DNA from: Lentibacillus sp. Marseille-P4043
Lineage (GTDB): Bacteria > Bacillota > Bacilli > Bacillales > Amphibacillaceae
Direction: 5' to 3'
DNA length: 64,000 nucleotides
Assembly (NCBI RefSeq): GCF_900258515.1
Contig: NZ_LT984884.1
Location: forward strand, 2,911,696 to 2,975,695
Positions 15,422 through 50,488 of this stretch are shown piece after piece; the stretch's first letter is position 1; the number at the start of each line of letters is the position of its first letter. The position numbers and the translations under genes are program-made. The notes beneath the pieces are model-generated. The model saw only the letters and a list, made by a program, of their open reading frames with translations. It was not told where the DNA came from and made no database searches.

Positions 15422-15635
15422 AGTGCGTGTTCAAAAAGGAGGATGAAAAGGACCGAGAAGTTCGAGGCGGCGTAGTTTCGAGTAGCGGAATGTATGCATT
15501 TAGATACATGAGCACAAGGGACACCCCCTGAAACTACATCGCACGAAGGAAAAGCGATTTTCTTTTCCAAGAAGCGGAGAAACAAGCCAACGAAGAAAGA
15601 TGTGTCATTTTCACCGGACTTTTTGAACAACCTCT
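15422..15635 (+). repeat. MITE-like dispersed repeat, copy A (214 bp)
   Basis: Ends AGTGCGTGTTCAAAAAG and, inverted, AGAGGTTGTTCAAAAAG; the element is flanked on both sides by the direct repeat ATT. Conserved interior blocks are shared with copies B and C: gaccgagaagttcgag (with B), GCGTAG-TTT-GAG and CAAGCCAACGAAG. This is the longest copy, with about 55 extra internal bases. No open reading frame of note. It lies between the yneT-like gene terminator and the parE promoter. Confidence 0.75.
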
Positions 15636-15646
15636 ATTACAACAAT

Positions 15647-15678
15647 AAAAAGGATGACCGATATGAGTCACCCTTTTT
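15647..15678 (-). terminator. Terminator overlapping the end of the CoA-binding gene
   Basis: On the minus strand AAAAAGGGTGAC pairs with GTCATCCTTTTT around CATATCG, ending in a T run. It overlaps the stop codon of the yneT-like gene and ends the opuF operon. Confidence 0.75.
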
Positions 15679-16102
15679 ACTGTTTATTCCCAATTAATAC
15701 AGAATGTGCAACCTTTATGCAGAGGTCCATGATTACTGTAAAATCACGTTCCTGCAAATAGTCATATGCCTCTTGGTTTGCTACACCTTGCTGGGCCCAT
15801 AATACGTTTGCGTCTGTAAGGGCGGCTTCCCTTGCTATGTCTGGCAAAAATTCTGATCGACGAAATACATTTATAATATCAAATTTCTGATCAATAGCTG
15901 TTAAGGACGGATACGCTTTTTCACCTAAAACCTCATCAACCTTAGGGTTCACAGGAATAATCTGATAGCCGTTTTCCTGCATCCGTTTGGAAATTTGATA
16001 GGATGTACGTTCTGGATTATCAGACAAACCAACAACAGCTATTGTCTTTGCATTCTGTAACACGTCTTTTATAGTATCATTTGTAGGATTTTCCATTGCC
16101 AT
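15677..16102 (-). CDS. yneT: CoA-binding domain protein (YneT-like)
   Basis: A 141-residue protein made of a single CoA_binding Rossmann domain. The nucleotide loop VVGLSDNPERTSYQI near residue 25 and the FRRSEFLPDIAREA segment are typical of the YccU/YneT family, related to the N-terminal domain of succinyl-CoA synthetase alpha. AGGAGGT stands eight bases before the ATG at 16102. The gene starts 12 bases after the OpuFB stop, so it is probably cotranscribed with the osmolyte transporter. In B. subtilis it also neighbours parE. The physiological role is unknown. Confidence 0.85.
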   Translation of the reverse strand: MAMENPTNDTIKDVLQNAKTIAVVGLSDNPERTSYQISKRMQENGYQIIPVNPKVDEVLGEKAYPSLTAIDQKFDIINVFRRSEFLPDIAREAALTDANVLWAQQGVANQEAYDYLQERDFTVIMDLCIKVAHSVLIGNKQ

Positions 16103-16114
16103 TTCTTTTACCTC

Positions 16115-17641
16115 CTATTTATCAAGCAAATTATGTTCGCTCAAAAATTGTCTTGCTACCTTTTCTGGTGAAATATCGTTATAGTCTACACGATAATTCA
16201 TTTTCCGCATTTGATCATCTGTTATTTTGCCACCTAGTCTATTTAATATCTTTTCAAGCTCCGGATATTTTTCTAATGTTTCTGCACGCAAAAGTGGTGC
16301 ACCTTGGTATGGTGGAAATAAATTTTTAGGATCATCCAATGTTACGAGACCCAATTCTATCATATAGCTATCTGTTGCATAAGCATCAATAATATCAACT
16401 TCACCATTAGACAATGCCTTTTGGCGAATTCCCGGTTCCATTGTTTTTACATTGGCAATATCTAATTGATATATATCTTGCATCCCTACATACCCATCAT
16501 ACCTGTCTTTAAACTCTAGTGTAAAGCCTGCAGTACTATTGTCTTCCACCTTATTTAAATCACCTATCGATGTTAAATCATGTTGCGTTGCAAATTCTTT
16601 CGTAGTTGCTACAGCATATGTATTGTTGTATTCCATTGGCGCTAGTAATGCCATATCATATTGTTCTTTCATACCTTGTTTCGCCTGCTCATAGACTTCG
16701 TTCGGATCATTACTATTTGCTTTCTGCTCCAAATGGGTGACAATCGCAGTACCTGTGAACTCTGGATAAATATCGATACTGCCTTCTTTTAAGGCATCAA
16801 ACACAAATGCTGTTTTACCTAAGCCGGGTTCCAATTTAACATTCAAATCTGTATTTTCTTCAATTAACAACTTATACATGTTGATTAGAATGGCTGGTTC
16901 TGCACCTAATTTAGCTCCAATAACCAAATCCGCCTTTTTCCCTGAATGAAATATTAATGGAGAAGCTACAACGAGTACCGCAATAATTAGCATTGCAATG
17001 AATGATTTGAATCCGGATCGTTTAGATACTCGCTCAAATCCACGTAAAATAAAATCCAGAATAATTGCCAGTAGTGCGGCAGGAATCGCACCTAATAGAA
17101 TCAAATTGATATCTGCACCACGATCAAGCCCCAGCAAAATCAATTCACCCAAACCACCAGCACCAATTAATGCTGCGATCGTTGTTGTTCCGACAATTAA
17201 CACCATTGAGGTACGAACTCCAGCCATAATAACAGGCATTGCAATCGGTAATTCGACCTTGGTCAATCGTTTAAATGAATTCATTCCCATTCCCGTTGCT
17301 GCTTCTTTTAAAGCAGGGTCAACTTCCATTATCCCTGTATATGTATTACGCAAAATTGGCAATAACCCATATGCAGTTAATGCGATAATGGCCGGTGTAG
17401 TACCAATTCCAAAGAACGGAATTAGAAGAGCTAATACAGCCAAACTGGGAATTGTCTGCATAATAGCTGACATGCCGATTATTGGTTCTGCAACACGTTG
17501 GTACCTCGTAAGTATTAAACCTAATGGCACAGCGATAACTATTGCAATAATTAATGATAATAATGATAGTTGCAAATGTTCCCAAATGGTTTCTACTAAT
17601 GTATCTTGTCTTTTTTCGAAAACAGAGATAAACGCATCCAT
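16115..17641 (-). CDS. opuFB: Compatible-solute ABC transporter, fused permease and binding protein (OpuFB type)
   Basis: A 508-residue fusion. Residues 1-210 form an OpuC-type permease with about six membrane segments and the EAA-like stretch EAATGMGMNSFKRLTKVELP. After one more hydrophobic segment near 220-235, residues 240-508 form an OpuAC/OsmF-type binding domain (start ADLVIGAKLGAEPAILINMYKLL) with several Tyr/Trp-rich patches. Together with the ATPase it would import glycine betaine or related osmolytes. This matches the OpuF systems of Bacillus, in which the binding protein is fused to the permease. The substrate is inferred from the family. Confidence 0.88.
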   Translation of the reverse strand: MDAFISVFEKRQDTLVETIWEHLQLSLLSLIIAIVIAVPLGLILTRYQRVAEPIIGMSAIMQTIPSLAVLALLIPFFGIGTTPAIIALTAYGLLPILRNTYTGIMEVDPALKEAATGMGMNSFKRLTKVELPIAMPVIMAGVRTSMVLIVGTTTIAALIGAGGLGELILLGLDRGADINLILLGAIPAALLAIILDFILRGFERVSKRSGFKSFIAMLIIAVLVVASPLIFHSGKKADLVIGAKLGAEPAILINMYKLLIEENTDLNVKLEPGLGKTAFVFDALKEGSIDIYPEFTGTAIVTHLEQKANSNDPNEVYEQAKQGMKEQYDMALLAPMEYNNTYAVATTKEFATQHDLTSIGDLNKVEDNSTAGFTLEFKDRYDGYVGMQDIYQLDIANVKTMEPGIRQKALSNGEVDIIDAYATDSYMIELGLVTLDDPKNLFPPYQGAPLLRAETLEKYPELEKILNRLGGKITDDQMRKMNYRVDYNDISPEKVARQFLSEHNLLDK

Positions 17642-18723
17642 TATTGAATCACCCCGTTTTCCATTTTTGTTTTACTTTTTAGAAATGCCACGATATCCTT
17701 ATCGCTTAATACTCCCACTAATCTTTGTTCTTTAACGACAGGAAATAATGTTTGATCACTAGATTGAATGATTTCCGTTGCCTTATAGAGGGGCAGATCA
17801 TTTTCAAGTGTTCTCGTTTCATGGAACACCCCATTTGTTGTAGCACCATAGTACATGTTGTGCTCATCCCTAATAATCGATGTACCAGTTGCATTGTATG
17901 TTTGATGCTCAAATTCGTTTTTGGTAATAACACGATCATTTGATTGATCCGCAATAACATCGATCGCTGTTTGCCATGGTGATTTGCGCTCACCAATGAA
18001 ATCTTTAACAAATGGTGTTGCTGGATGTAAGATTAACTGTTGTGGTGAATCAACTTGAACGATTTTTCCATTGCGCATTAAACATACTTTATCACCGATT
18101 GCCATCGCTTCATCCATATCATGCGTGACAAATACGATTGTCTTTTTAATTTCTTTTTGTAATGCTCGAATATCATGCTGCAGTTGTTCCCGACTAATTG
18201 GATCCAGTGCACTAAAAGGCTCGTCCATTAATATAATGTCTGGATTTGCTGCCAATGCACGGATTACTCCGATACGTTGCTGCTCGCCACCTGATAACTC
18301 ACTAGGCATTCGCTTCTGATATGTAGATGGATCAAGTCCGACCATTTCCAACAATTCCATGCTGCGTTCTCGTATTTTATTCCGTTTCCACTTTTTCATT
18401 TCTGGCACAACCGCAATATTCTCTTCAATTGTCAGGTGTGGAAATAAGGCAATTTCTTGCAAAACATAGCCAATATTCCAGCGCAATTCATGAATGTTAT
18501 AGTCATTAATATTTTTACCGTTTATGTAAATTGATCCGGAAGTAGGTTCGATTAAACGATTAATCATTTTCATTGTCGTTGTCTTTCCACAACCACTTGG
18601 TCCAATTAATGTTACTAATTCCCCACTATTAACCTGAAGGGAAAAATCATTTAACGCCTCTGTACCATCAGAATATACTTTCGTTACATTTTTAAATTCA
18701 ATCAAACCTTTCATCCCTTCCAA
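17641..18723 (-). CDS. opuFA: Compatible-solute ABC transporter ATPase (OpuFA type)
   Basis: A 360-residue ATPase. Walker A GPSGCGKTT, signature LSGGEQQRIG, Walker B IILMDEPFSALD and the H-loop FVTHDMDEA are in order in the first 220 residues. The C-terminal 100 residues look like a CBS pair (VVKEQRLVGVLSDKDIVAFL), as in OpuAA/OpuCA, where CBS modules sense ionic strength. It overlaps OpuFB by one base. The start is uncertain: TTG at 18723 has GGAGGT eleven bases upstream, while an ATG at 18714 and a TTG six bases later (after GGAAGGG) are alternatives. Confidence 0.88.
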   Translation of the reverse strand: MEGMKGLIEFKNVTKVYSDGTEALNDFSLQVNSGELVTLIGPSGCGKTTTMKMINRLIEPTSGSIYINGKNINDYNIHELRWNIGYVLQEIALFPHLTIEENIAVVPEMKKWKRNKIRERSMELLEMVGLDPSTYQKRMPSELSGGEQQRIGVIRALAANPDIILMDEPFSALDPISREQLQHDIRALQKEIKKTIVFVTHDMDEAMAIGDKVCLMRNGKIVQVDSPQQLILHPATPFVKDFIGERKSPWQTAIDVIADQSNDRVITKNEFEHQTYNATGTSIIRDEHNMYYGATTNGVFHETRTLENDLPLYKATEIIQSSDQTLFPVVKEQRLVGVLSDKDIVAFLKSKTKMENGVIQ

Positions 18724-18899
18724 TTTCTATTTTTACCTCCATTTTGGCAGATACCCCCAATACCAGTTTCAAAAACATTTTAAGATTTCGCAAGCTAAAT
18801 GCATTAAAATAGCGATGAATCATTATTTTGGGTTCTTTCCATCATAAGTTCATGATAAAATAAACTATACTATATTATGTATAGAGAGAAGGAAACAAG

Positions 18900-19484
18900 A
18901 TGGAATATATTGTATTTGCTATTATTGCGTATCTCTTAGGTTCTATCCCATCAGCACTAATTGTCGGCAAACTAGGATATAAATTAGATATCCGCGAACA
19001 TGGAAGCGGTAACTTAGGTGCAACCAATACGTTTCGGGTATTAGGTGTAAAAGCAGGAATTATGGTTACACTATCCGATATTCTTAAAGGAACAATCGCA
19101 ACATTGCTACCGTTATTGGTTGAAGCAGATGTTTATCGGTTAGCCATAGGACTGTTTGCTGTTATTGGTCATACATATCCACTATTTGCAAAATTTAAAG
19201 GTGGTAAAGCTGTTGCGACTTCTGGTGGGATAATTTTAGGTGTAAGCCCATTATTATTTATTAGTATGGTCGTCACTTTTTTGCTAGCGTTATATTTGTC
19301 CAAATATGTATCCCTTTCCTCGATGATAACAGGTATTGTGTCCGTCATTGTGGCTTTTCTTCTCCAGGAAGATATAGGGCTAATCATTGTAGTTGCAGCA
19401 TTAACAATCTTTGTTTTCTATCGACATAAAGAGAACATCAAACGCATCAAAAATAAAACAGAACCAAAGATTAAATGGATGTAA
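18900..19484 (+). CDS. plsY: Acyl-phosphate glycerol-3-phosphate acyltransferase PlsY
   Basis: A 194-residue membrane protein with about five segments that makes lysophosphatidic acid from acyl-phosphate and glycerol-3-phosphate. The family motifs are seen: [11 protein letters not shown] near residue 14, [16 protein letters not shown] near residue 33 and [10 protein letters not shown] near residue 100. AGAAGG precedes the ATG. It diverges from the opuF operon across a 176-base intergenic region that must hold both promoters (TATACT and TATTAT are -10-like on the plus side). Confidence 0.95.
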
Positions 19485-19615
19485 GAACAAAAGCGCAAGC
19501 GCCCGATTTCTGGCTGTTTTGTCAAGTAAGTTTGTACAAGCCAAACAATTGAATATTACTATTAGATTGAGTATAATTTTTAGTAGTTAGAGAGCAGAGA
19601 GGAGCTATCGTTGTT

Positions 19616-20548
19616 ATGGATAAAGTTAATACACTCCCAAAAAAACAATTACCAAACAAAGCAGAACGTCATAAATTATTTGGTTCCGTTGAGCCAGGTC
19701 CAAAAACTAAACCGGTCGAGAAAAACAAGATGGCCGATTTACAAAATACAAAAAAAGACTTTTTATTTGATTTAGACGAAGTTGGGATTTCCAATGTAAA
19801 ACATCCAATAATGGTCCAAAGTAATCTAAATCCTACTACACAAACCAGCATTGGAACATTTCGTTTTTCTTCAGCCATTGAAAAGTCAAGCAAAGGTACA
19901 AATATGAGTCGTTTTACAGAGCAACTAACACTGTATCATGAAGCTGGATTCACAGCAGATATCTCTACTTTAAAACAATTTACAAAGGATCTTGCTGAAC
20001 GTTTAAAACAGCGTGATGCTAAAATAGCTGTTTCATTTCCTTGGTTTTACGAACGTCGCGGTCCCCAATCAGGACTGACAGGAATGAACCATGCAGATGC
20101 AGAGATTACTGTTGCCTACGATCAGGAAAGAGGATTTAATATCACTGTTTCTCTTTCTGTACTGATTACGACCTTATGTCCTTGTTCTAAAGAAATCAGT
20201 GAGTATAGTGCACATAACCAGCGCGGTTGTGTCACAATGGAAGCTGAAATTGATCATAATTTTGATGAGGAAAAAATGGATTGGAAAGAAATGTTGCTTG
20301 AAGCTGCAGAAAGTAATGCCAGCTGTCGTTTACATCCTGTTTTAAAACGACCTGATGAAAAAATGGTAACAGAGCACGCATACGAAAATCCACGATTTGT
20401 TGAAGATATGGTCCGCCTTGTTGCGGCAGACTTATACGAAATGGCTTCTGTGCAGAAATTTAAAGTTGTTTGCCGTAATGAAGAATCAATTCATATGCAT
20501 GACGCAATCGCATCTGTGACGTATGACAAAAATGTTACGTCAGCTTAA
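19616..20548 (+). CDS. folE2: GTP cyclohydrolase I, type IB (FolE2)
   Basis: A 310-residue FolE2/MptA-type GTP cyclohydrolase that starts folate and queuosine precursor synthesis. The conserved core TLCPCSKEISEYSAHNQRG contains the catalytic cysteine region, and PWFYERRGPQSGLTGMNHADAE fits the family. GAGGAGC precedes the ATG at 19616. FolE2 enzymes work with metals other than zinc and in B. subtilis are switched on under zinc limitation by Zur; I do not see a clear Zur box upstream. The following yidD gene starts 12 bases after its stop. Confidence 0.93.
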   Translation: MDKVNTLPKKQLPNKAERHKLFGSVEPGPKTKPVEKNKMADLQNTKKDFLFDLDEVGISNVKHPIMVQSNLNPTTQTSIGTFRFSSAIEKSSKGTNMSRFTEQLTLYHEAGFTADISTLKQFTKDLAERLKQRDAKIAVSFPWFYERRGPQSGLTGMNHADAEITVAYDQERGFNITVSLSVLITTLCPCSKEISEYSAHNQRGCVTMEAEIDHNFDEEKMDWKEMLLEAAESNASCRLHPVLKRPDEKMVTEHAYENPRFVEDMVRLVAADLYEMASVQKFKVVCRNEESIHMHDAIASVTYDKNVTSA

Positions 20549-20560
20549 AAAGGGAAAATA

Positions 20561-20794
20561 ATGAAATATATTTTCATAGCTATCATTCAATTTTATCGAA
20601 AAGCGATCAGCCCATTTAAACCACCAACATGCAGGTTTTACCCTACATGTTCAGAATACGGTTTAGAAGCGTTTAGACGGTTTGGAGCAATTAAAGGAGC
20701 CTATTTAACAATCAGGCGAATTGCAAAGTGCCACCCATTCCACCCTGGTGGAGTTGATTTAGTGCCAGAAAAAAAAGAAAAAAATCATACGTAG
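20561..20794 (+). CDS. yidD: Membrane protein insertion efficiency factor YidD
   Basis: A 77-residue YidD-family protein. It has an N-terminal hydrophobic/amphipathic stretch and the hallmark cysteine segments [15 protein letters not shown] and [11 protein letters not shown]. YidD helps YidC-dependent insertion of membrane proteins, probably at the inner face of the membrane. AAGGG precedes the ATG. It sits between folE2 and the yneR-like gene on the same strand. Confidence 0.93.
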
Positions 20795-20815
20795 CTATAA
20801 AGGAGCTGGATTTGA

Positions 20816-21103
20816 TTGAAATTACATGTAACCGAAGAGGTAGCTGAATGGTACAAGGAAGAACTAGATATCGATGATACCAACCAACTTCGCTTTTATG
20901 TAAGGTATGGCGGCTCTGGCGGGCGTATTCCAGGCTTTTCTCTTGGAGTTCGTGTAGATTCACCGTATGAAGCCTTTATAACTTGTAAAGCCGGTGGGTT
21001 GACATTTTTTATTGAAGCAAAAGACGCGTGGTATTTTGATGACAATAACTTATATGTAAGGCTTAACCAGAATAAAGATGAACCAGAATTTGTATATGAC
21101 TAA
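20816..21103 (+). CDS. yneR: HesB/IscA-like fold protein (YneR)
   Basis: A 95-residue protein with the HesB/YneR-type fold pattern (LRFYVRYGGSGG...GFSLGVRVD). It has only one cysteine, so it lacks the three-cysteine iron-sulfur site of IscA and is unlikely to be a classical A-type carrier. The TTG at 20816 is ten bases after GGAG. Convergent with yneQ, sharing a two-way terminator. Function is unknown in the family. Confidence 0.85.
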   Translation: MKLHVTEEVAEWYKEELDIDDTNQLRFYVRYGGSGGRIPGFSLGVRVDSPYEAFITCKAGGLTFFIEAKDAWYFDDNNLYVRLNQNKDEPEFVYD

Positions 21104-21108
21104 TAAAG

Positions 21109-21140
21109 TGGGGAAAGTCACGAACACGTGATTTTCCCCA
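21109..21140. terminator. Bidirectional terminator between yneR and yneQ
   Basis: Stem TGGGGAAAGTCACG / CGTGATTTTCCCCA, with T or A runs on both sides, in the 41-base gap between convergent genes. Confidence 0.85.
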
Positions 21141-21144
21141 TTTT

Positions 21145-21444
21145 TTACAAGTCGAATTGTTTAATTTGCCCCCATTGCTGTTCTTTTTGTAAAATCTCTT
21201 TTTGATTTTTACCAAATAAGTCAAAATGAGGATAATCTTGATGATGATCAATCCATTCTTTTCTCAATCCATAACGAAATCCCCAGGCTGCCAACTTATT
21301 TATATCGCTACATCCGACCTTTGTGACTGTATAACAACCTGGAAATCTTGGGTCCTGCCAATAGTGTGTGAGAAAAGCAATATTTCCTTTTCTCACTTCT
21401 TGCTTCCATCGGATTAATTCTTGCCGTTTCAATCCAAATGCCAT
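21145..21444 (-). CDS. yneQ: YneQ-like protein of unknown function
   Basis: A 99-residue basic, tryptophan-rich protein with no membrane segment. The position directly after the yneP thioesterase gene, with TAATG stop-start overlap, and before yneR matches B. subtilis yneQ. No catalytic motif is recognised. Expression is likely translationally coupled to yneP. Confidence 0.75.
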   Translation of the reverse strand: MAFGLKRQELIRWKQEVRKGNIAFLTHYWQDPRFPGCYTVTKVGCSDINKLAAWGFRYGLRKEWIDHHQDYPHFDLFGKNQKEILQKEQQWGQIKQFDL

Positions 21445-21869
21445 TAAGAATCTCCATTAATTTGTTTGCTATATGCATCGTGCCAGTCGGGAAAAGCTTT
21501 TCGCAATGATAACGGGCGAAAGCTATCTTTTTTCACAATAACATGTTTTGTAGTTCCACTTACCGCAACATTGCCCTGTTCATCTATTATTTGATAACCG
21601 TATACCGTACGTAATCCATCATATTTTTCCAGCCATGTTTCAACTACTGCATCTTCACCATAGCGAACTGGTTTTTTAAATGAAATTTGTGCATCTGTTA
21701 CTGGGGACACAACATTGTCCCCCTCCATATCTGCATAGTTCAAGCCTAAGCTTTCAATATATTTTGTTCTTCCTATTTCAAACCAAACTAAATAATTTGC
21801 ATGATAGACAACACCCATTTGATCTGTCTCCTGGTATCTTACTTCTATTGGTGTACGTACCTTATTCAC
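21444..21869 (-). CDS. yneP: Acyl-CoA thioesterase, hot-dog fold (YneP/YbgC-like)
   Basis: A 141-residue 4HBT-type thioesterase. The motif RYQETDQMGVVYHANYLVWFE near residues 10-30 holds the catalytic aspartate and the following turn. It likely hydrolyses short acyl-CoAs or related thioesters in the cytoplasm. The start is GTG at 21869 with GGAGG upstream. Its stop overlaps the start of yneQ (TAATG). Confidence 0.88.
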   Translation of the reverse strand: MNKVRTPIEVRYQETDQMGVVYHANYLVWFEIGRTKYIESLGLNYADMEGDNVVSPVTDAQISFKKPVRYGEDAVVETWLEKYDGLRTVYGYQIIDEQGNVAVSGTTKHVIVKKDSFRPLSLRKAFPDWHDAYSKQINGDS

Positions 21870-21954
21870 AGTATTTCCTCCTTGTAATTACTCATCTCTA
21901 CCATTTTATCACAATTTTGGATTGAAATAAGACACGATGCCTATGTAAGTAAAA

Positions 21955-21982
21955 ACCTCAAACCATAAGGATGGCTTGAGGT
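21955..21982 (-). terminator. Terminator after tlp
   Basis: On the minus strand ACCTCAAGCCAT pairs with ATGGTTTGAGGT and is followed by TTTTT, just past the tlp stop. Confidence 0.8.
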
Positions 21983-21991
21983 AATCTGAAA

Positions 21992-22225
21992 TTATTGGTT
22001 TAGCTGATTATCGCTTGCCTCATCTTGTATTTCTTGCCGCATACCTTCAATCGCTTCTTCACGACGCTTGTTTTTAGCTTCAATTTTTTCTTTTTCTTCG
22101 CCTGAAGAAAATTGCATTGTTTCATGTGCTTCTTCAATGTTTTGAATCGTATCTTGTACCGCACTTTGCAACTTTTCTACGTTATCGCTGCGATCATCAG
22201 GTTTTGGTTTGTTATTTTTCACCAT
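21992..22225 (-). CDS. tlp: Small acid-soluble spore protein Tlp
   Basis: A 77-residue hydrophilic protein with the Tlp family core PDDRSDNVEKLQ, NIEEAHETM and EKNRREEAIE-like segments. Tlp is a minor acid-soluble protein of the spore core made under forespore control in B. subtilis. AAAGGAG precedes the ATG. The same locus order (tlp-yneP-yneQ) occurs in B. subtilis. It supports a spore-forming host. Confidence 0.92.
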   Translation of the reverse strand: MVKNNKPKPDDRSDNVEKLQSAVQDTIQNIEEAHETMQFSSGEEKEKIEAKNKRREEAIEGMRQEIQDEASDNQLNQ

Positions 22226-22292
22226 TTATATTCTCCTTTCACATCAAGTATCAACTCTATTTTCTGCAATAAAAATCATTCTATACAAAAAG

Positions 22293-22321
22293 AAGCACCT
22301 TACTAGAATAGTTAGGTGCTT
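22293..22321 (-). terminator. Terminator after the FbpB-like gene
   Basis: AAGCACCT pairs with AGGTGCTT around a 13-base loop, followed on the minus strand by CTTTTT, about 10 bases past the stop of the small gene at 22330-22476. Its presence supports that gene. Confidence 0.75.
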
Positions 22322-22329
22322 GTGATTAA

Positions 22330-22476
22330 TTACATTTCATTTGCTTTTTTTATCGATTCATTTCGTTTTATCTCTATATTTTGCTCTATCTTGTCCATTA
22401 ATAATTGGTCTTGCACAATTTGTTTACGATTTTCTTTCACCAATTCCTCAAACGATAATCTTCTCTTTAAAGAAAT
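22330..22476 (-). CDS. FbpB-like small basic protein with an apparent ATT start
   Basis: A 48-codon frame encoding a lysine/arginine-rich peptide that begins (I)SLKRRLSFEELVKENRKQ and has a second half rich in IE.KR motifs. The RxSFEELVxxN pattern is that of the Fur-regulated basic protein B family, small RNA-chaperone-like proteins of the iron-sparing response. No ATG, GTG or TTG exists between the upstream stop and the conserved core. An ATT at 22476 is nine bases after AAGGAG and is the best start, as in infC. A terminator follows the stop. The MITE-like copy B lies only about 19 bases upstream and may have separated it from its promoter. Confidence 0.55.
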   Translation of the reverse strand: MSLKRRLSFEELVKENRKQIVQDQLLMDKIEQNIEIKRNESIKKANEM

Positions 22477-22494
22477 AGCAATCCACTCCTTTTA

Positions 22495-22652
22495 AGTGCG
22501 TGTTCAAAAAGGAGGATAAAAAGGACCGAGAAGTTCGAGACAGCGTAGCTTTGAGTACCGGAACGTATGCTAAATAATACGTGAGGAACGGAAAAGCAAG
22601 CCAACGAAGAAATTCGATGTGTCATTTTTACCGGACTTTTTGAACAACCTCT
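22495..22652 (+). repeat. MITE-like dispersed repeat, copy B (158 bp)
   Basis: Same 17-base ends as copy A (AGTGCGTGTTCAAAAAG; AGAGGTTGTTCAAAAAG inverted) and flanked by TTA direct repeats. The interior shares gaccgagaagttcgag, GCGTAGCTTTGAG, AAGCAAGCCAACGAAG and GATGTGTCATTTT with copy A but lacks about 55 central bases. It is inserted between yneN and the FbpB-like gene. Confidence 0.75.
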
Positions 22653-22689
22653 TTAACAGAAGTATTACCATTTCTTCAAAAATTTATAA

Positions 22690-23274
22690 CTATTCTAGAG
22701 AATGTAACATATCGACCATAAAATCATATGTCATTGGTCCAACTTTTTTTGACTCTTGAACCTTACCATCTTTTCCAATAAAGTAAGTCGTTGGTAGTGC
22801 AGATACCATGTATTGCTCAGAAACCTTCATTTTTTTGTCTAATAGAACCGGGTACGTATAATCGTACTCATCGATAAACTTTCTTGCTTTCTCCTTGTTC
22901 GTATCGGTATTTACAGCAATTATCTCCACTTCCCCTTGGTGTTCCTCATAAAACTTTTGCATTTCAGGCATCTCAATACGACAAGGTCCACACCAGCTAG
23001 CCCAAAAATTCAAGAAAACCTTTTGCCCTTTTAGCTCAGATAGTTTAACTGTTTCCCCGGAGAGTGTCTCAAGCTCAAAGTCTGGTGCCTTTTCCCCAGT
23101 TTCAACCCCAGTTTTTCCAGGAGGAACAATTGCCGCCCCTGCCATATCTGAATCCGGGCTAACATTTTCCGGATCTTCATTGGTCGCAGTATTCTCATCC
23201 TCTTTCTCCACTACATTAAATATTACGATTCCTGCCAGAAGAACAATTACAATAATTCCAAGTACCTGCTTCAT
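22690..23274 (-). CDS. yneN: Membrane-anchored thiol-disulfide oxidoreductase (ResA/YneN-like)
   Basis: A 194-residue thioredoxin-fold protein anchored by one N-terminal membrane segment (VLGIIVIVLLAGIVIFNV), facing the outside. The active-site motif is WCGPC in FLNFWASWCGPCRIEMPEMQ, and cis-proline lies in ALPTTYF. It reduces disulfides, as ResA does on apocytochrome c, or serves another extracytoplasmic role. The second ATG (23274) is better spaced from AAGGAG than the first. In B. subtilis yneN also lies beside citB. Confidence 0.87.
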   Translation of the reverse strand: MKQVLGIIVIVLLAGIVIFNVVEKEDENTATNEDPENVSPDSDMAGAAIVPPGKTGVETGEKAPDFELETLSGETVKLSELKGQKVFLNFWASWCGPCRIEMPEMQKFYEEHQGEVEIIAVNTDTNKEKARKFIDEYDYTYPVLLDKKMKVSEQYMVSALPTTYFIGKDGKVQESKKVGPMTYDFMVDMLHSLE

Positions 23275-23386
23275 TAACATGACTCTCCTTGCTTAACACT
23301 ATGCTGTATATAGTATGCATGATGTTTTTCATATTTGTAAAGAGGATATGGCTGTTGTTCGAAAATTATTCATGAAGGAGAATAAA

Positions 23387-23422
23387 GAGAAGTCCTTACA
23401 CCAATTGATGTAAGGACTTCTC
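23387..23422 (-). terminator. Terminator after citB
   Basis: Stem GAGAAGTCCTTACA / TGTAAGGACTTCTC with an 8-base loop, 12 bases past the aconitase stop. The T run on the minus strand is brief (TTTATT). Confidence 0.8.
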
Positions 23423-42266: not shown

Positions 42267-42716
42267 TTATTCGTATGCTTGAAGTGCCTGAAGCATCCAA
42301 ACGTATTTCTCTAATTTCGCTTGTAAGCCGATCATGAGATCACTTGTTGGCTCGTCTTTGTTTTCTTCAGCTAAAGGTAATCCTTCTTTTTTAATTTCAT
42401 CAATTAATTGCTCGTAATCATGACGCAATTGTGCAATGATCTCATTTTCTTTATCATCTGCAGTTGCTTCTTCAAGTGTAGCTTCTTTCAAATATTTGCT
42501 CATTGTTGCCAAAGGTTTCCCATTAATCATTAGAATACGCTCAGCAATTTCATCTAGATCATCCGCTACTACACCATACATTTCTTCAAACTGAGCGTGT
42601 AATTGAAAGAAATGCCTTCCTTGAACATACCAATGATACCGATGCAATTTTACATACATGACAAAATAATTGGACAGTAATTGATTTAAAAAATTAATTA
42701 AACGCTGATTATCCAC
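42267..42716 (-). CDS. dps: Dps-family ferritin-like protein
   Basis: A 149-residue Dps/MrgA-type protein that oxidises and stores iron and may shield DNA. Ferroxidase residues are in KLHRYHWYVQG, FFQLHAQFEEMY and DDLDEIAERI. The GTG at 42716 is preferred (AGGTG six bases before it) over a GTG three codons upstream. It lies between mutL and miaA. I see no PerR box in the short upstream gap, so it may be read from mutL or from a promoter inside it. Confidence 0.9.
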   Translation of the reverse strand: MDNQRLINFLNQLLSNYFVMYVKLHRYHWYVQGRHFFQLHAQFEEMYGVVADDLDEIAERILMINGKPLATMSKYLKEATLEEATADDKENEIIAQLRHDYEQLIDEIKKEGLPLAEENKDEPTSDLMIGLQAKLEKYVWMLQALQAYE

Positions 42717-42773
42717 AAAACACACCTCGCATTTTCCACTAGCTTAGACGAGATCTATTCTGTTTATACATCA

Positions 42774-44639
42774 TTACATAACCCGTTTGAACATTTTTTC
42801 CAGTTCGTAAGAGGAAAAATGAACAATTATTGGTCTGCCATGCGGGCATGTGAATGGATCTGTTGTTGAACGCAAGTCTTCTAATAGGCGAAACATATCA
42901 TCTTGATTCAAGTAATGGTTTGCTTTAATCGATCGTTTACACGACATTAGGATGGCCGCATCTTCTCGAATGGCTTCAATATTAATTTTTTCCTCATTCA
43001 TAATTTGTCCGATCATCTCACGAATAACTTCTTCTTCAAAACCTCGTGGAAACCAATTTGGGTGGGAGCGGATAATATAGCTCTGATTACCAAATGGTTC
43101 AAAAAACAAGCCCACTTTCTCCAGGTCTTCTTTGTATTGTTCAATAAAGATAGCTTCCTGCTTGGAGAAATCAAATGTTAACGGAATTAATAATGCTTGC
43201 GATTCATTCGTTGTTTTTCCCAATTTCTCTTTAAAAAACTCATATTTAATTCGTTCCTGTGCCGCATGCTGATCAATCATATATAGCCCATTTTCATTCT
43301 GTGCCATAATATACGTCCCTTGTAATTGTCCGATCGGGTACATTGTAGGTACACGTTCTCGCCCTACTTTAACTGGTGGCTCTTGAATTGTAAATTCCTC
43401 TTCTTCAGCTGGTTGAGCAAGTGATTGATCTGTTTCTTGCTGTTGATCAAAATTCACGTCTTGATAAAAATCCAACTCTGATTCTGGTACACCTTTATCA
43501 AAACTAGTGGCAAGTGGCATCTGCGTTTCACTTACCTGTTTTTCCAAATTCCAATCCATTGTCGATTCAGATTTTGGCACATCATCAAATGTTATCGTGC
43601 TTTGTATAGATTTTGGTGGTTGTTGTTTTTCCTTCCGTTCTAATTCAGGAATTAACGTTGTCTTCCGGAATGTCGCTTGAATGGTTTCTTCAATTGAAGT
43701 AAATAATTCTTTATCCTTACTAAACCGAACTTCAAGTTTTGCTGGATGAACATTTACATCAACTAGGATCGGATCCATATTGATCGAAAGTACGACAATC
43801 GGTTGGCGGCCGATAGGTAACAACGTATGATATCCTCTAATGATGGCTTTTGATAGTGGGATACTTTTAATATAGCGTCCATTAATAATCGTTGAAATAT
43901 AGGACCGTGACGCACGCGTAACTTCGGGCTTGGCAATATAACCCTCAATGGTAAAATCAAGTGTTTCATGCTTAATTGGTAACATTTTTTTCGCCACACT
44001 CATCCCGTATACATGGGCGATAACCTGCAGAAGATCCCCGTTTCCAGTTGTTTTAAAAAGCTGCTTGCCATTATGGGTAGCTTCAAACCTTATCGATGGA
44101 TGTGACAATGCTAAACGATTTAGTAAATCAGTAATATGGCCGAGTTCCGTATGAATTGTTTTCATGTATTTTAACCGGGCGGGCGTATTAAAAAATAAAT
44201 CCTCAACAACGATTTCCGATCCTTTCCGGGCATCGCTCTTTCGTTTATCGGTAACGTTACCACCTTCGATTTCTAGTATTGTACCTGCTGCATCACCCTG
44301 TGACGTTTTCACGGACAGTCGACTGACCGCTGCAATACTAGCTAGTGCCTCACCACGAAAACCAAGTGTTTTGATATGGAATAAATCTGATTCATTTTTA
44401 ATTTTGCTTGTGGCATGACGTAAAAAAGCTGTCTCACAATCCTGTTCTGACATTCCATCCCCGTCATCGGTGATTTTAATTTGCTGTAATCCGGCTTCTT
44501 GAATTTCTACTTTTATCCATGTACTATTCGCGTCAATACTATTTTCAATTAGCTCTTTTACGACAGATGCTGGTCGTTCTACTACTTCCCCAGCTGCTAT
44601 TTTGTTTGCTAGCGCATCAGGCATTTGAGTTATCTTCAT
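42774..44639 (-). CDS. mutL: DNA mismatch repair protein MutL
   Basis: A 621-residue MutL. The GHKL ATPase motifs [17 protein letters not shown] and [11 protein letters not shown] are in the first 110 residues. The C-terminal endonuclease motif [12 protein letters not shown] fits DQHA(X)2E(X)4E, so this MutL nicks DNA itself, as in bacteria without MutH. A proline/acidic linker lies at about 345-430. It follows mutS by 46 bases. Confidence 0.96.
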
Positions 44640-44685
44640 ACTACCTATCCTTTCTCAAGCATTCCAAACTCCGTAATCCTCCACT

Positions 44686-47265
44686 TTAGTTTTGCTTCGT
44701 TAGCTTTTGCAATCGGTATAATTCATTCATAGCATCTAATGGTGTCATATCAAACAAATCTAGATTTGCTAATGCTTGCTCTACGGCAGAATCCTGCTTT
44801 TCTATGTCTTTCTTTTTCGCAGGCTGATTTTCTTCAACAAAAAATGATAATTGATTGGAATCATGAATTTTTGCCGTTTGTTCCCCTTGATCAACATCCT
44901 CAAATTCACGCAGTATCATACTTGCTCGATTAATTAATGCTTCAGGTAAATTGGCAAGTTTTGCGACATGAATTCCATAACTCTCGTCTGCTGCCCCATC
45001 CATTATCTGGTGAAGAAACACGACATTTCCTTCATGTTCTTCTGCTCGCACATGAATATTTTTTAACTTATCCAAGGAATCTTCCAACGCTGTTAATTCA
45101 TGATAATGGGTGGAGAAAAGGGTTTTCGCATGAATATTGTTGTGAATATACTCTACGATAGCTTGGGCTAATGCCATACCATCATAAGTGCTTGTACCCC
45201 GCCCAATTTCATCTAATAAGATTAAGCTTTTATCAGTTGCATTTGCAATGGCATGATTCGCTTCAAGCATTTCAACCATAAAAGTACTTTGACCGGAGAC
45301 TAAATCATCCGCCGCTCCAATCCTAGTAAAGATTTGATCGAAAATAATCAAATCAGCTTCATCACATGGTACAAAACAGCCAATTTGTCCCATGATAACA
45401 GTTAATGCCAGTTGTCGCATAAACGTACTTTTTCCGGACATATTTGGTCCCGTTATAAGAAGTACTTCTGTTTCCTTATCAAGTTTAATATTATTTGGTA
45501 CAAATGAGCCATCTTTCATGACCTGTTCCACTACCGGATGCCGGCCATTATTTATCGACAGGTTATTTTCAACAAACCGCGGACGTTTATAATTATTTTC
45601 CTCACTAACGGTTGCAAATGCTTGTAATACATCAATTCGACTAACAACATCTGCCAATTCTTGTAATACAGGGATTTGTTCTTTTAATTGTTCACGAATT
45701 TCAATAAACAAATTATATTCCAGTTCAACACTTTTTTCTTCCGCTTCCAGGATAAGCTGCTCCTTTTCCTTTAATTCAGGTGTAATGTAGCGCTCTGCGT
45801 TTGTTAAGGTTTGTTTACGCTCATATCTTCCCTCAGGCAATAAATGTAAGTTAGCTTTTGTAACTTCAATATAATAGCCAAACACTCGATTATAGCCAAT
45901 TTTTAACGATTTGATGTTTGTTTCCTGCTTTTCCTTTTGTTCTAATTCAGCAATCCACTTTTTCCCATTCCGTGATGCATCACGATACGTATCTAACATT
46001 TCGTTATAACCATCTTTAATGATGCCACCCTCTTTGATTGAAATAGGCGGATCATCTACTAAACTACCTTCCAGCATGGTGACAATTTGCTCTGGCCAAC
46101 GAATGGCGTTACATAATTCCTTGATCTGTGGTTGTGGAAATTGTTGTAAAATAGTTTGTAATTCAGGGATTTTATTAAGTGATTGCTTAAGTTGAATTAA
46201 ATCACGTGCATTCACATTTCCATAGGCGATTCTTCCTGCTAATCGTTCTAAGTCATAAACGGACTTTAATGATTCCCGTAATGAATCACGTTCCATAAAT
46301 CCTTGATAAAATCCATCAACAATCTCAAGGCGCTCATCTATAAGATGCTGATTAATCAATGGACGTTCCAACCATTTCTTTAATAGTCTCGATCCCATTG
46401 CTGTAACTGTTCGATCTAATACCCACAACAGGCTTCCATGTTTCCCTTTTTTAATAATTGTTTCCGTTAATTCCAGATTGCGTTTGGAGTACATATCCAA
46501 TGACAAATAATCGTTTAGCTCGATCACTTTGGCAGGCTGTAAATGATCAAGTGAACGTTTCTGTGTGTGCTGGATATAATTTAACAGCCGACTGAACGCC
46601 TTCATCAAACGCTCATCATTTAAATCATCACATAGGTTGCGATATTCCCCGTTAAAAGTGATCTCATCCTGAAAAGATAATGTTACATTTAGTTTTGCTT
46701 GTAAATCGTGCTGCCAATTCCCGGGGAGATTAGACGAAATAACAATCTCTTTAATTGGTTGGTTATATAATTCGTGAATAACCGCTTCCCATCCATGTGT
46801 AACCATTGCCAACCGGTTTTCGCCAGTAGATAAATCATTATAGACAATGACGAATGTACCATCCTGAAAATGGGATAGACTAGCAATATAGTTATTTTCC
46901 CGTTCACTCAGCATGTTCGTCTCCATAACTGTTCCGGGTGTTATTAACTGCACAACTTCCCGTTTCACTACACCTTTAGCAGCTTTCGGATCTTCCACTT
47001 GCTCACATATTGCTACCTTATAACCTTTCTCAATTAAATTTTTTATGTAATTATCCGCTGAATGATAGGGTACACCGCACATTGGAATTGGCTCTTTCTG
47101 TCCCGCATCCCGTTTTGTTAGCGTAATCTCAAGCTCCCTTGCAGCCTTTGTTGCATCATCAAAAAACATTTCATAAAAATCACCTAGCCGGAAAAACAAA
47201 AAAGCATCCTTATGCTCAGCCTTGATTTGTAAATATTGTTCCATCATTGGTGTATATTTTGCCAT
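44686..47265 (-). CDS. mutS: DNA mismatch repair protein MutS
   Basis: An 859-residue mismatch-recognition ATPase. The mismatch-wedge motif GDFYEMFFDDA is near residue 30; Walker A GPNMSGKST and the DEIGRGTSTYDG block are in the C-terminal ATPase. The second of two ATGs (47265) has the better distance from GGAGG. A QxSFF-type clamp motif (QLSFFVEE) near residue 800 is the likely DnaN-binding peptide. Confidence 0.96.
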   Translation of the reverse strand: MAKYTPMMEQYLQIKAEHKDAFLFFRLGDFYEMFFDDATKAARELEITLTKRDAGQKEPIPMCGVPYHSADNYIKNLIEKGYKVAICEQVEDPKAAKGVVKREVVQLITPGTVMETNMLSERENNYIASLSHFQDGTFVIVYNDLSTGENRLAMVTHGWEAVIHELYNQPIKEIVISSNLPGNWQHDLQAKLNVTLSFQDEITFNGEYRNLCDDLNDERLMKAFSRLLNYIQHTQKRSLDHLQPAKVIELNDYLSLDMYSKRNLELTETIIKKGKHGSLLWVLDRTVTAMGSRLLKKWLERPLINQHLIDERLEIVDGFYQGFMERDSLRESLKSVYDLERLAGRIAYGNVNARDLIQLKQSLNKIPELQTILQQFPQPQIKELCNAIRWPEQIVTMLEGSLVDDPPISIKEGGIIKDGYNEMLDTYRDASRNGKKWIAELEQKEKQETNIKSLKIGYNRVFGYYIEVTKANLHLLPEGRYERKQTLTNAERYITPELKEKEQLILEAEEKSVELEYNLFIEIREQLKEQIPVLQELADVVSRIDVLQAFATVSEENNYKRPRFVENNLSINNGRHPVVEQVMKDGSFVPNNIKLDKETEVLLITGPNMSGKSTFMRQLALTVIMGQIGCFVPCDEADLIIFDQIFTRIGAADDLVSGQSTFMVEMLEANHAIANATDKSLILLDEIGRGTSTYDGMALAQAIVEYIHNNIHAKTLFSTHYHELTALEDSLDKLKNIHVRAEEHEGNVVFLHQIMDGAADESYGIHVAKLANLPEALINRASMILREFEDVDQGEQTAKIHDSNQLSFFVEENQPAKKKDIEKQDSAVEQALANLDLFDMTPLDAMNELYRLQKLTKQN

Positions 47266-47354
47266 CATTAATCCTCCAAAAACCGAATATATATTGTTCC
47301 ATTATAGCATAAATTGCAAGTTTGAAGCGACTGGATAACATGCACCGGGTTATA

Positions 47355-47371
47355 AGAGATTGTTCAAAAAG
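47355..47371 (+). repeat. Solo end of the MITE-like repeat
   Basis: AGAGATTGTTCAAAAAG matches the 17-base end AGAGGTTGTTCAAAAAG of the dispersed repeat with one change. No second end is found nearby, and the cotE terminator begins directly after it. Confidence 0.45.
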
Positions 47372-47376
47372 AAAAA

Positions 47377-47407
47377 ACTTACGAGAGAATTTATCCCTCG
47401 TAAGTTA
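47377..47407 (-). terminator. Terminator after cotE
   Basis: AACTTACGAGGG pairs with CTCTCGTAAGTT on the minus strand, followed by TTTTT; it directly abuts the cotE stop. Confidence 0.85.
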
Positions 47408-47408
47408 T

Positions 47409-47981
47409 CTAGTCTTTACTACTACTGCTTTCGTTTAGGAAATCAGGATTCACATCACTAAGTTCATCATCCGTAATATCAAAACCCCAATCATCGTCAT
47501 CATCATAATCGTGCCCTTTTGGACTTACTCGAACGTTGACTTTTGTTTCGCCAATGATTTGCACAACAAATTCACGCTCAATTTCAACAACGATTTTGTG
47601 ACCTTGATTCGCAATTTTGCATTCTAAACAGTTAGGCTGTTGTACCACTTTGCAAATTACATCATAGTCATCGTTTAAACAGTTGTCATCCTTAACAGAT
47701 AACGGAATATAATCACAGTAAGTTACTCGCTCTGTCACGACTTCTGTTTTTGTATTATCATTGTACGAATACCAAATGTTAATATCGTAGCTACCATTTA
47801 CCTCAACCGTATCCTCCGATTTTTTCTTGGCATTATACAAATGATTGATGACCCAACAACCGAGTATGCTTGATGGCCTATGTGATGGTGTTACAGAATG
47901 CGTTGCTTGCGTGAATTTACGTCCCTTTCCACAAACGGCTTTCGTAATGATTTCTCTATATTCTTGATCAAGAAAACTCAT
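47409..47981 (-). CDS. cotE: Outer spore coat morphogenetic protein CotE
   Basis: A 190-residue protein with the CotE pattern: [21 protein letters not shown] near the N terminus, ILGCWVINH, and an acidic tail rich in aspartate ([18 protein letters not shown]). CotE assembles the outer spore coat in the mother cell. AAAGGAGG precedes the ATG. Its place between mutS and ricA matches B. subtilis and is strong evidence for sporulation. Confidence 0.95.
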
Positions 47982-48098
47982 AATTACGTATACCTCCTTT
48001 TTCTCATAGTCATTTTATGCAAGACAAATACCTAAAGTGCATAACTGATTCTATGAAAGCAAAAAGAACGGTACAACGGGGAAAGGTTATGAACAAAA

Positions 48099-48132
48099 AT
48101 TCCAAGCGAGTGTGACTGCAACTCGCTTGGAT
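48099..48132 (-). terminator. Terminator after ricA
   Basis: ATCCAAGCGAGT pairs with ACTCGCTTGGA around a 9-base loop, then TTTTT on the minus strand, 7 bases past the ricA stop. Confidence 0.85.
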
Positions 48133-48139
48133 TTCTAAT

Positions 48140-48568
48140 TTAATGGCTGCATGCAGAGCCGTTATTCACCTTGGAACCAGTTTCACCTGAAAGCAGGTCA
48201 CCACCAGTTGATTCAATGACATCATTGGTTACTTCTCTGGCAATGGTACCAGTAACAAGTTGTAACACATCATTTACAACAATTTGTGTTTCTTTAAATT
48301 CTTGTACAACAGGGATTTCATCAATCTCTTCTTGTAGACGATCAATTTCTTCCTCTACTTTTTTTAATGCTTCCTTTTTTTCATATGCTTGAAAATTAAC
48401 TGCTTGTTTCTGCAGTGTTTTAATCTTATTGATCAATCGTTGTACTTTTTTATTTTCATTAATCTTAGCTTCAACTTGTTTAAAACGATCAATTTCCTCA
48501 GTGTTAGCAAGCATTCCAGCTAATTTTTTTGCTTGGTCCAATATTTGCGTACGTGTATATTCAGCCAT
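48140..48568 (-). CDS. ricA: RicA (YmcA), RNA maturation and development factor
   Basis: A 142-residue helical protein of the YlbF/YmcA family with a long coiled region (KKVQRLINKIKTLQKQAV...LKKVEEEIDRLQEEID). The C terminus ends in GSACSH; a cysteine there takes part in the RicAFT iron-sulfur complex in B. subtilis, which works with RNase Y in mRNA maturation and affects sporulation, competence and biofilm. It starts 2 bases after the miaB stop. The RNase Y gene is also in this window. Confidence 0.9.
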   Translation of the reverse strand: MAEYTRTQILDQAKKLAGMLANTEEIDRFKQVEAKINENKKVQRLINKIKTLQKQAVNFQAYEKKEALKKVEEEIDRLQEEIDEIPVVQEFKETQIVVNDVLQLVTGTIAREVTNDVIESTGGDLLSGETGSKVNNGSACSH

Positions 48569-48570
48569 GT

Positions 48571-50139
48571 TTAATTCACCTCAACTGTATTTTCTACCAT
48601 TATACCATTTAATGACCATGTTTTCGCTTCTGTTATTTCCACTTCAACGATTTTTCCGATTGCTGATTTTGGCCCTTTAAAGTTTACCAATTTGTTTCTT
48701 TCCGTGTAGCCGGCAAGAACATCCGGATCTTTTTTACTCTCACCCTCTACAAGTACCTTTACGATTTTATTGTCGTATTGTTTCATTGATTCGGCTGATT
48801 GTTTATTCACAAGGTCATTTAAACGATAGAGACGCTGCTTCTTCACTTCTTCCGGCACATCATCCTTTTTGCGTGCTGCTGGTGTACCTTCACGAGGTGA
48901 ATAAATAAATGTATATGCCGCTTCAAAACCAACTTCTTCAACAAGTGTCATTGTTTCCTCAAATTGTTCCTCTGTTTCATTTGGGAAGCCAACGATGATA
49001 TCGGTTGTTAATGTAGCGTTTGGCATGGCCTTACGGATTTTACGGACCAATTCTAAATAGTCTTCCCGGGTATATTTACGGTTCATTTTCTTCAACACTT
49101 CACTACTACCAGATTGGACAGGTAAGTGAATGTGATCAAGCAAATTACCGCCTTGGGCAAGTACTTCGATTAAGCGATCATCAAAATCACGCGGGTGTGA
49201 CGTTGTAAAACGAACTCGTGGAATATCAATTTTATGGATATCATCCATTAAATCCCCTAGCCCATACATCATATCCTCGAAATCTTTTCCGTAAGCATTC
49301 ACATTTTGACCAAGTAATGTCACTTCTTGATAGCCCTGTGCAGCCAGATGGCGAATTTCTTGAATAATATCCTCTGGCCTGCGACTGCGTTCTTTACCAC
49401 GGGTCATCGGTACAATACAATATGTACAGAACTTGTCACAGCCATACATAATATTTACCCATGCTTTAATTTTTCCCTTACGTGCTTTTGGAAGGTTTTC
49501 AATAATATCGCCTTCTTTGGACCATACCTCGACAACTTTTTCCTTGCCAAACATGGCTTCTTTCACTAACTGTGGAAGGCGATGAATGTTGTGCGTTCCA
49601 AAAATCAAATCTACATGTTGATGCTTCTTCATGATTTTATTCACAACAGATTCTTCTTGTGACATACATCCACAAACACCTAAAATCAAATCTGGTTTTT
49701 CCAGCTTTAACGGTTTTAAATGACCGATCTCGCCAAATACTTTGTTTTCGGCATTTTCCCGTATCGCACATGTATTTAACAAAATAATGTCTGCCTCATT
49801 TGTATCAGAAGTTGACTCATAGCCCATATCTGTTAAAATACCTGCCATAACTTCTGTATCATGTTCATTCATTTGACAGCCATATGTACGGATAAGAAAC
49901 TTTTTGCCTTTTCCAATGTTCTCCATGTCTTCTGGAATGCCAAAATCATAATGCACGTTTACTTTATCTCGACCTCGTTTACGTGCTTTATTAAGGTTTG
50001 GTGGTTCATAGGTTGTTTCAAAGTATTTCGCAAAATCCACACTTGTTTTTTCACTTAATGGTTTGTCCTGTCCGGATTTTTTGTCCGCGGCATCTACTTG
50101 TTTAATTTGCGCCTGCTCTTTTCGTTGTTGTTCATTCAT
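48571..50139 (-). CDS. miaB: tRNA methylthiotransferase MiaB
   Basis: A 522-residue radical-SAM enzyme that converts i6A37 to ms2i6A37. The N-terminal UPF0004 domain has cysteines in [19 protein letters not shown] and GVCGCMSQ; the radical-SAM cluster motif is [10 protein letters not shown] near residue 228; a TRAM domain ends the protein ([21 protein letters not shown]). ATG at 50139 after AAAGGAG is chosen over an upstream in-frame ATG. The B. subtilis YmcB equivalent is also beside ricA and cotE. Confidence 0.95.
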
Positions 50140-50331
50140 AACGAGACTCCTTTCTTTATATAAAAAACGCATTTACCATCATTTTTCGTACATTATTACA
50201 GTATAAAGCTTATACTTAAATTAAACAATACATGAACAATGATCGCAAACAAAAACCTTTTGCAAAGTAGAAGGCTGCAAAAAAATGCACATAAAAATAG
50301 TGCTACGCATTAAACGCAACACTTATGTTAT

Positions 50332-50488
50332 AAATCATGTTCAAAAATTGCCAAATTAGAAGCAAGCAGATCGATGCGGCGTAGCTTTGGGCCCCGGAAT
50401 GTACAATAAAAAGGTACAAAAGGAGCGAAAAAGCAAGCCAACGAAGCGATTCACCACTTATTATTTGGTATCTTTTTGAACAACTCCT
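50332..50488 (+). repeat. MITE-like dispersed repeat, copy C (157 bp)
   Basis: More diverged copy of the family, with inverted ends TGTTCAAAAA / TTTTTGAACA and the shared core GCGGCGTAGCTTTGGG...CCGGAATGTA...AAGCAAGCCAACGAAG. Counting six bases beyond the TGTTC motif on each side, as in copies A and B, it is flanked by TAT direct repeats. It lies between spoVS and miaB, where kbl/tdh lie in B. subtilis. Confidence 0.7.

Follow-up and report, generated by a model that had tools for sequence, protein, structure and literature searches.

Three short intergenic elements and their family

The window analysed here is a 64,000-nucleotide stretch of Lentibacillus sp. Marseille-P4043 (contig NZ_LT984884.1, positions 2,911,696 to 2,975,695 of the forward strand), and it holds three intergenic elements of 155-212 bp, which have a common core and inverted ends built on TGTTCAAAAA and are not overlapped by any open reading frame (ORF) of 100 aa. 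An earlier note on this DNA had described three intergenic copies on one strand with a common core and inverted ends, and the sequence and a family model, R1, both bore this out. The model, which was built from 63 sequences including copies 2 and 3 but not copy 1, matched the window exactly three times at E values up to 5, at the positions given for the copies in Table 1, with E values of 1e-26, 4e-38 and 4e-25 for copies 1, 2 and 3, respectively. The bounds of the element lie five bases outside TGTTC in each copy. With up to three mismatches allowed, AAGCAAGCCAACGAAG has four occurrences in the window, where 0.66 would be expected, and three of them are inside the copies; TGTTCAAAAA alone is not enriched there (19 one-mismatch matches against 22 expected).

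Table 1. Elements of the repeat family in the window and their parts (positions are those of the window).
Feature	Position	Strand	Basis or remark
Copy 1, left 5-bp target duplication TATTA	15418..15422	.	sequence; 114-copy test
Copy 1, 212 bp, A-type arms and extra 59-bp module	15423..15634	+	sequence, R1; without counterpart in G001
59-bp module in right arm of copy 1, between GAGC and AGCGG	15514..15572	+	
Copy 1, right 5-bp target duplication TATTA	15635..15639	.	
Copy 2, left 5-bp target duplication TTTAA	22491..22495	.	
Copy 2, 156 bp, A-type arms	22496..22651	+	sequence, R1; absent in G001 and G002
Copy 2, left inverted end GTGCGTGTTCAAAAAG	22496..22511	+	
Copy 2, twofold motif GAGnAnCGGA, left strand, GAGTACCGGA	22553..22562	+	
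Copy 2, twofold motif, right strand, GAGGAACGGA	22583..22592	+	
Copy 2, right inverted end GAGGTTGTTCAAAAAG	22636..22651	- (read on - strand)	
Copy 2, right 5-bp target duplication TTTAA	22652..22656	.	
Solitary right-end-like GAGATTGTTCAAAAAG, possible remnant	47356..47371	+	without R1 match
Copy 3, left 5-bp target duplication TTATA	50328..50332	.	
Copy 3, 155 bp, B-type arms, ends more diverged	50333..50487	+	sequence, R1
Copy 3, right 5-bp target duplication TTATA	50488..50492	.	
Solitary right end GAGGTTGTTCAAAAAG, probable remnant of a further copy	58674..58689	+	without R1 match

A blastn search with copy 2 gave 42 matches in this genome, some of which are pieces of one copy, and identity to copy 2 is 93-97% in four other copies. 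The copies sit on both strands, and the common orientation remarked on earlier thus holds within the window and not genome-wide. Two arm types were distinguished, A (GGAGGATAAAAAGGACC) and B (TTGCCAAATTAGAAGC), the tips and the core being common to both. The 59-bp module of copy 1 is one of two versions in this genome and of six distinct versions among the loci examined, found with a search pattern that itself demanded GAGC in front of the module. Downstream of the copy at G000:C1:1221909 there is a short tandem repeat (AACATCAACCCGAGAACGAA...; L015).

Beyond this genome, copy 2 has matches in 16 of 41 related genomes, its own included, and 86 exact right ends were counted in one congener (G001) against 0 for a reversed control. 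A survey with R1, using filters that lose weak matches, covered 299 genomes of the class (taken to be Bacilli) and 119 genera; the model matched 53 of the genomes, again counting its own, and 29 of the genera. The carriers include Oceanobacillus, Lentibacillus, Lederbergia, Fictibacillus, Evansella, Aquibacillus and Paenisporosarcina, and Paenibacillus plasmids carry family members with a third arm type. A further 29 loci were taken one per genome; both tips were present in 22, of which 12 also have an exact duplication. The copies in records titled Bacillus subtilis DE0224 (L042, L078, L091, L097 and L106) look Lederbergia-like by eye, and the record may be mislabelled or mixed. One locus (L126, about 4390-4660 and 7245-7470) has two copies in the gaps of what is presumably a glycolytic operon, with GAPDH-like and phosphoglycerate-kinase-like ORFs. 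Full-text searches of openly licensed papers listed none that showed this family.

Absence from congeners and the length of the target duplication

The earlier note had held that its reading would be refuted if relatives kept the element at orthologous sites with no empty sites; in the event, congeners lack it at such places. Copy 2 is missing from both congeners compared, the flanks meeting within about 9 bases in G002 and being separated by about 20 other bases in G001. G001 lacks copy 3, having 103 bases in place of 241 between the two genes that flank it, and about 8 kb stands at its site in G002; copy 1 is absent from G001, where the stretch is 186 bp shorter and the end motif is missing, and its place in G002 is taken by a decayed member with other arms.

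The flanking repeats ATT, TTA and TAT, previously taken for a 3-bp target duplication, are the middle of the exact 5-bp repeats TATTA, TTTAA and TTATA, and we replace the 3-bp duplication by one of 5 bp, with the caveat that the support from the copies is weak at one end. The duplication was examined in 114 delimited copies, 28 from this genome and 86 from elsewhere, including some doubtful entries (L008, whose left end is false, L063, entered twice, and L158, a 73-bp form). The 86 are among the matches listed for one exact 17-base core word, and therefore the conservation of that word is by selection of the copies. An exact 5-bp duplication flanks 66 of the 114, against a mean of 6.4 and a maximum of 19 in 10000 shuffles, and further copies thus do show target duplications, the lack of which in more copies had been named in advance as a refutation. 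By origin, the exact match was found in 18 of 28 copies in this genome (cross-pairing null 1.3) and in 48 of 86 elsewhere (null 4.3), the 3-bp version matching in 19 and 57, respectively; 18 further copies have a one-base mismatch in the 5-bp flank. Among the 66 exact duplications, 59 have the form T...A, 56 are pure A/T and 21 different 5-mers occur. A listing of 12 short forms demanded an exact duplication and is no measure of how many short forms lack one.

For the choice of five over three bases we used the 76 copies with matching middle three bases, in which the preceding base is C in 30 and the following base G in 33. At the left end, a non-A base matches its partner in 5 of 6 cases, and the match is 5 of 8 where the partner is non-A; the corresponding values at the other end are 2 of 4 and 2 of 9. 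The copies thus support five over three well at one end and weakly at the other, and the matter is settled more clearly by the insertion sequences described below, since all three show exact 5-bp duplications. In one locus (L149, about 1075-1445) two tandem copies have a common TTTAA, as if the duplication had been reused as a target.

A probable source of the transposase

The Alicyclobacillus fastidiosus plasmid NZ_CP104068.1 carries three copies of a gene for a transposase of a 438-aa type, all within insertion sequences of 1636 bp, each of which starts with GAGCGTGTCCGAAAAG, finishes with GCTTTTCGGACAACCTC and has an exact 5-bp duplication (TATTA, TTATA and TTTAT). Their ends read GAGCG-TGTCCGAAAAG and GAGGT-TGTCCGAAAAG, and the repeat follows the same plan with GTGCG or GAGGT, then TGTTCAAAAAG, and the 5-bp duplication outside. 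A solitary end in G001 (L170) reads TATTA-GAGCGTGTTCAAAAAG and adjoins an ORF of 250 aa with its stop 206 bp inside the tip, compared with 201 bp in Alicyclobacillus. This relic transposase fragment is 82% identical over 217 residues to a 438-aa protein (P0006), and the ORF resembles DDE transposases with scores under the curated cut-offs. A protein search returned 60 relatives, many of them of 438 aa with DUF772 and DDE_Tnp_1 domains, and relatives are annotated as transposase in Virgibacillus, Aquibacillus salsiterrae, Mesobacillus and Paenibacillus. D142, D247 and E361, which we take to be the DDE triad, are invariant across 19 aligned transposases. Aquibacillus salsiterrae has both a copy of the repeat (L052) and the transposase (P0011). 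In NCBIfam the 438-aa protein is nearest to the IS1182 and IS5 models, far below the cut-offs (77 and 110 against 270; 38 and 36 against 140), and by these cut-offs it is placed in neither family.

The insertion sequence with like ends that the earlier note predicted thus exists as a close variant on the Alicyclobacillus plasmid and as a relic with an identical tip in G001, with a duplication of 5 and not 3 bp, and the mover of the repeat is probably a DUF772/DDE_Tnp_1 transposase of this kind.

A partner was also sought by pairing ends, and none emerged among the pairs that were read. With listed ends 300-6000 bp apart there were 2 pairs in this genome (both with two-mismatch ends) and 9 in G001, of which L163, L164 and L165 have housekeeping genes between the ends by reading. 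Six pairs had matching 5-bp flanks at 300-5000 bp; L149, L165 and L126 proved to be separate or tandem copies, L050 and L081 were discarded for poor ends, and the sixth pair is in L106. In 138 viral loci at least 15 pairs were seen and, among the matches listed, none was insertion-sequence-sized with a 5-bp match; no transposase was found in viral contigs and phages. No transposase was recognised by reading among the ORFs at a solitary end of this genome (L143).

A conserved fold in the interior

Between the tips, the copies share a fold. In an alignment (A1) of 63 of the 114 copies, those with bodies of 142-149 bp, one strand forms a 40-pair hairpin with 97.9% of the cells paired and 18 pairs that change on both sides; RNAalifold predicted 38 of the 40 pairs, and pairs 63-99 and 64-98 were added by eye. 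The covariation score, uncorrected for relatedness, is 0.274 in comparison to 0.108 for shuffles and at most 0.064 when slid, and further pair types number 41 in comparison to 37.3, a value reached by 28 of 500 shuffles. The motif GAGnAnCGGA is present in both arms, and the covarying pairs there are flanked by G·A and A·A mismatches. The first variable pair is C-G in 32, T-A in 23, G-C in 5 and A-T in 1 of the 63 copies, and the second is C-G in 31, G-C in 20 and A-T in 8; an A-A lies between them in 56 and the neighbouring G-A pairs are kept in 54 to 60. Of the 29 loci of the wider set, 22 have the motif, with both variable pairs standard in all 22, and the other 7 lack it by pattern; this is no independent test because the loci were found with a model containing the pairs.

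Outside pair 17-148 there are 46 G-U cells against 12 A-C cells, and this excess points to the left-to-right strand as the one that folds, RNA and single-stranded DNA not being told apart by it. Column identity is 97 and 99% in the tips, 92 and 96% in the core, where part of the right core was ascertained, and 84 and 80% in the arms. No known RNA family matched above the Rfam cut-off in the window, nor did any match the core of eight loci at E values up to 1. The MITE-like reading of the earlier note (MITE, miniature inverted-repeat transposable element) stands as to the kind of element, and the conserved interior fold and the nested structured repeats described next were not visible to it.

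Nested Bacillaceae-1 units and relatives without tips

The Rfam family Bacillaceae-1 (RF01690) has 25 matches above the cut-off in this genome. Ten are inside copies of the repeat family (nine by script and L222, which has lost one end, by reading; a script label for L227 was judged false), 11 belong to a different, second interspersed repeat (nine were placed there by the script, and L215 and L217 on reading) and 4 are outside both. In G001, 5 of 16 matches are inside family copies by reading. No match reaches the gathering cut-off in the window, and modules inside other copies do reach it. The second interspersed repeat (GTAGACTCCTGsGGG ... GACCCCGCAG; L206-L214 and L230-L234) carries Bacillaceae-1 or weaker Bacillaceae-1-like matches, and two more repeated contexts of the unit were noted by reading in G001 (L406, L409 and L410; L417-L419), so that four or more repeats may contain it. 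The best match of this genome (L205, 1501-1567) has flanks that read coding-like.

Relatives of the core without tips were also found. In G228, which has four equal-score matches of which L246 was read, the order in an rRNA operon is 16S, tRNA, Bacillaceae-1, 5S, core and 23S, and in G256 (L245) the core lies directly before 5S rRNA. A further tipless relative (L248) precedes what we take to be a T-box antiterminator, and another (L254) adjoins 5S-like letters; Rfam made no call for either.

In print, Bacillaceae-1 appears among motifs found by comparison (PMC2864571); it is also called a family of unknown function, and its reverse complement is suggested to bind CsrA (PMC4333381). Because 21 of the 25 matches here sit in two interspersed repeats, Bacillaceae-1 may represent a module of such repeats, either instead of a small RNA gene or in addition to one.

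Weighing the explanations

With a probability of about 0.8, we regard these elements as a MITE-like non-autonomous family of Bacilli moved in trans by the transposase, of about 438 aa, of an insertion sequence of about 1.6 kb. Transposition of such a family by a transposase encoded elsewhere, as proposed earlier, is supported by the many copies, the inverted ends, the fixed-length duplication and the element-free sites in congeners; that the DUF772/DDE_Tnp_1 enzyme moves these copies is probable, judged from the sequences. The transposase would recognise the inverted ends, five bases (mostly G-G--) followed by TGTYCRAAAAG, and cut an AT-rich target, mostly TWWWA, with a 5-base stagger that leaves the 5-bp duplication, presumably by a cut-and-insert DDE mechanism.

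Several observations weigh against this explanation. The empty sites show no clearly legible single TWWWA, their flanks having diverged (at the site of copy 2 the original TTTAA cannot be clearly read in either congener), and 48 of the 114 copies lack an exact duplication, 18 of these being off by one base. Copy 2 has no match among plasmids and phages at an E value of 1e-5, and plasmid NZ_CP104068.1 has no R1 match. Of the loci examined, tblastn found transposase relatives in four only, the three Alicyclobacillus places and L170. In no copy-rich genome was an intact gene for the transposase seen, this genome and G001 not having been searched for it, nor was any genome seen with both repeats and an intact gene with the exact tip, the genomes likewise not having been searched for the transposase. 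The Alicyclobacillus tip TGTCCGAAAAG differs from that of the repeat at two bases, and this, with only one exact-tip relic seen, would suit a different transposase with similar ends, the insertion sequence being a look-alike. We consider this quite unlikely, as the five-base offset, the right-end ACCTC, the duplication length and the AT-rich targets agree in all three insertion sequences, and the relic tip, which comes from a congener with many copies, matches TGTTCAAAAAG throughout. A route resembling site-specific recombination at TWWWA, as suggested in print for the bcr repeats, would fit the TTTAA shared by the tandem copies of L149; its chance of being right is very slight, given 21 different exact 5-mers among the 66 and insertion sequences with the same layout.

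The fold invites two other explanations. The element could be mainly a functional host RNA repeated by happenstance, as the covarying fold and the tipless relatives directly before 23S and 5S rRNA might suggest. This we find improbable, because the element is absent at the same place in congeners, matches only the 16 related genomes mentioned above, and shows no significant orientation bias relative to genes (40 copies are sense, 5 of them in this genome and 35 elsewhere, and 30 are antisense, 10 here and 20 elsewhere, with 7 copies inside an ORF set aside and 6 unclassed). The covariation could also reflect the upkeep of a DNA palindrome and not single-strand folding: arms of differing sequence all remain self-complementary, and the further pair types barely exceed the shuffles in data uncorrected for relatedness. 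We hold this to be unlikely, since the G-A and A-A mismatches are kept beside the covarying pairs and G-U cells outnumber A-C cells. Under the preferred explanation, a MITE-like family moved in trans, the interior would be a long imperfect hairpin kept by selection on the folded left-to-right strand, most likely because the element, being transcribed as part of operons, has to fold without doing harm, or else because it is recognised as folded RNA or single-stranded DNA. A more tentative proposal, which we would put at somewhat less than even odds, sees in the interior a structured RNA of Bacilli that has not been described before, folded on the left-to-right strand around the twofold GAGnAnCGGA and travelling by a borrowed insertion-sequence enzyme, with copies that seed Bacillaceae-1 and the 59-bp module and some that have been domesticated in rRNA operons, losing the tips and keeping the fold. 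Mobile DNA may thus be spreading structured RNA through Bacilli, and with a probable enzyme named, the movement is directly testable.

Comparison with known systems

The unnamed insertion sequences with the 438-aa transposase, from Alicyclobacillus and with relatives in Virgibacillus, Aquibacillus, Mesobacillus and Paenibacillus, are like the repeat in end layout, in the AT-rich 5-bp duplication and in the relic tip of G001; they differ in being 1636 bp long and coding, in having no common sequence inside the tips and in their intact tip.

The bcr1-bcr3 repeats of the Bacillus cereus group, compared by description and not by sequence, are likewise intergenic and MITE-like, and two sources associate them with an AT-rich 5-base motif, TTTAT, place them often in UTRs or operon gaps and report them as limited to the B. 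cereus group, unlike the repeat (PMC3446304, PMC6542083). Their motif TTTAT is not found among the 66 exact duplications, and its reverse complement ATAAA occurs once. TTTAT is the duplication of one Alicyclobacillus insertion sequence (NZ_CP104068.1, 174.7-176.1 kb; L431), which is a lead only. Bacillaceae-1 RNA is found inside copies in both orientations, and both structures occur in one rRNA operon (L246); it is a structure in its own right, nested in the copies as well as in other repeats, and does not belong to the basic element.

Like MITEs, the elements are short with no room for a transposase gene, and have terminal inverted repeats, a target duplication, here of 5 bp, and orthologous places from which they are missing; as for ends shared with an autonomous transposon, a close variant is present in all three insertion sequences and an identical tip in one relic and no intact element. 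MITEs are usually regarded as two ends around filler, and the repeat differs in that its interior is conserved and common to copies with different arms, which is unexpected of filler; in its place there is a fold that has been preserved from genus to genus and from one arm type to another. With a probable mover the family has lost some of its mystery, and what is unusual about it is the folded interior, which is conserved, together with the nested units.

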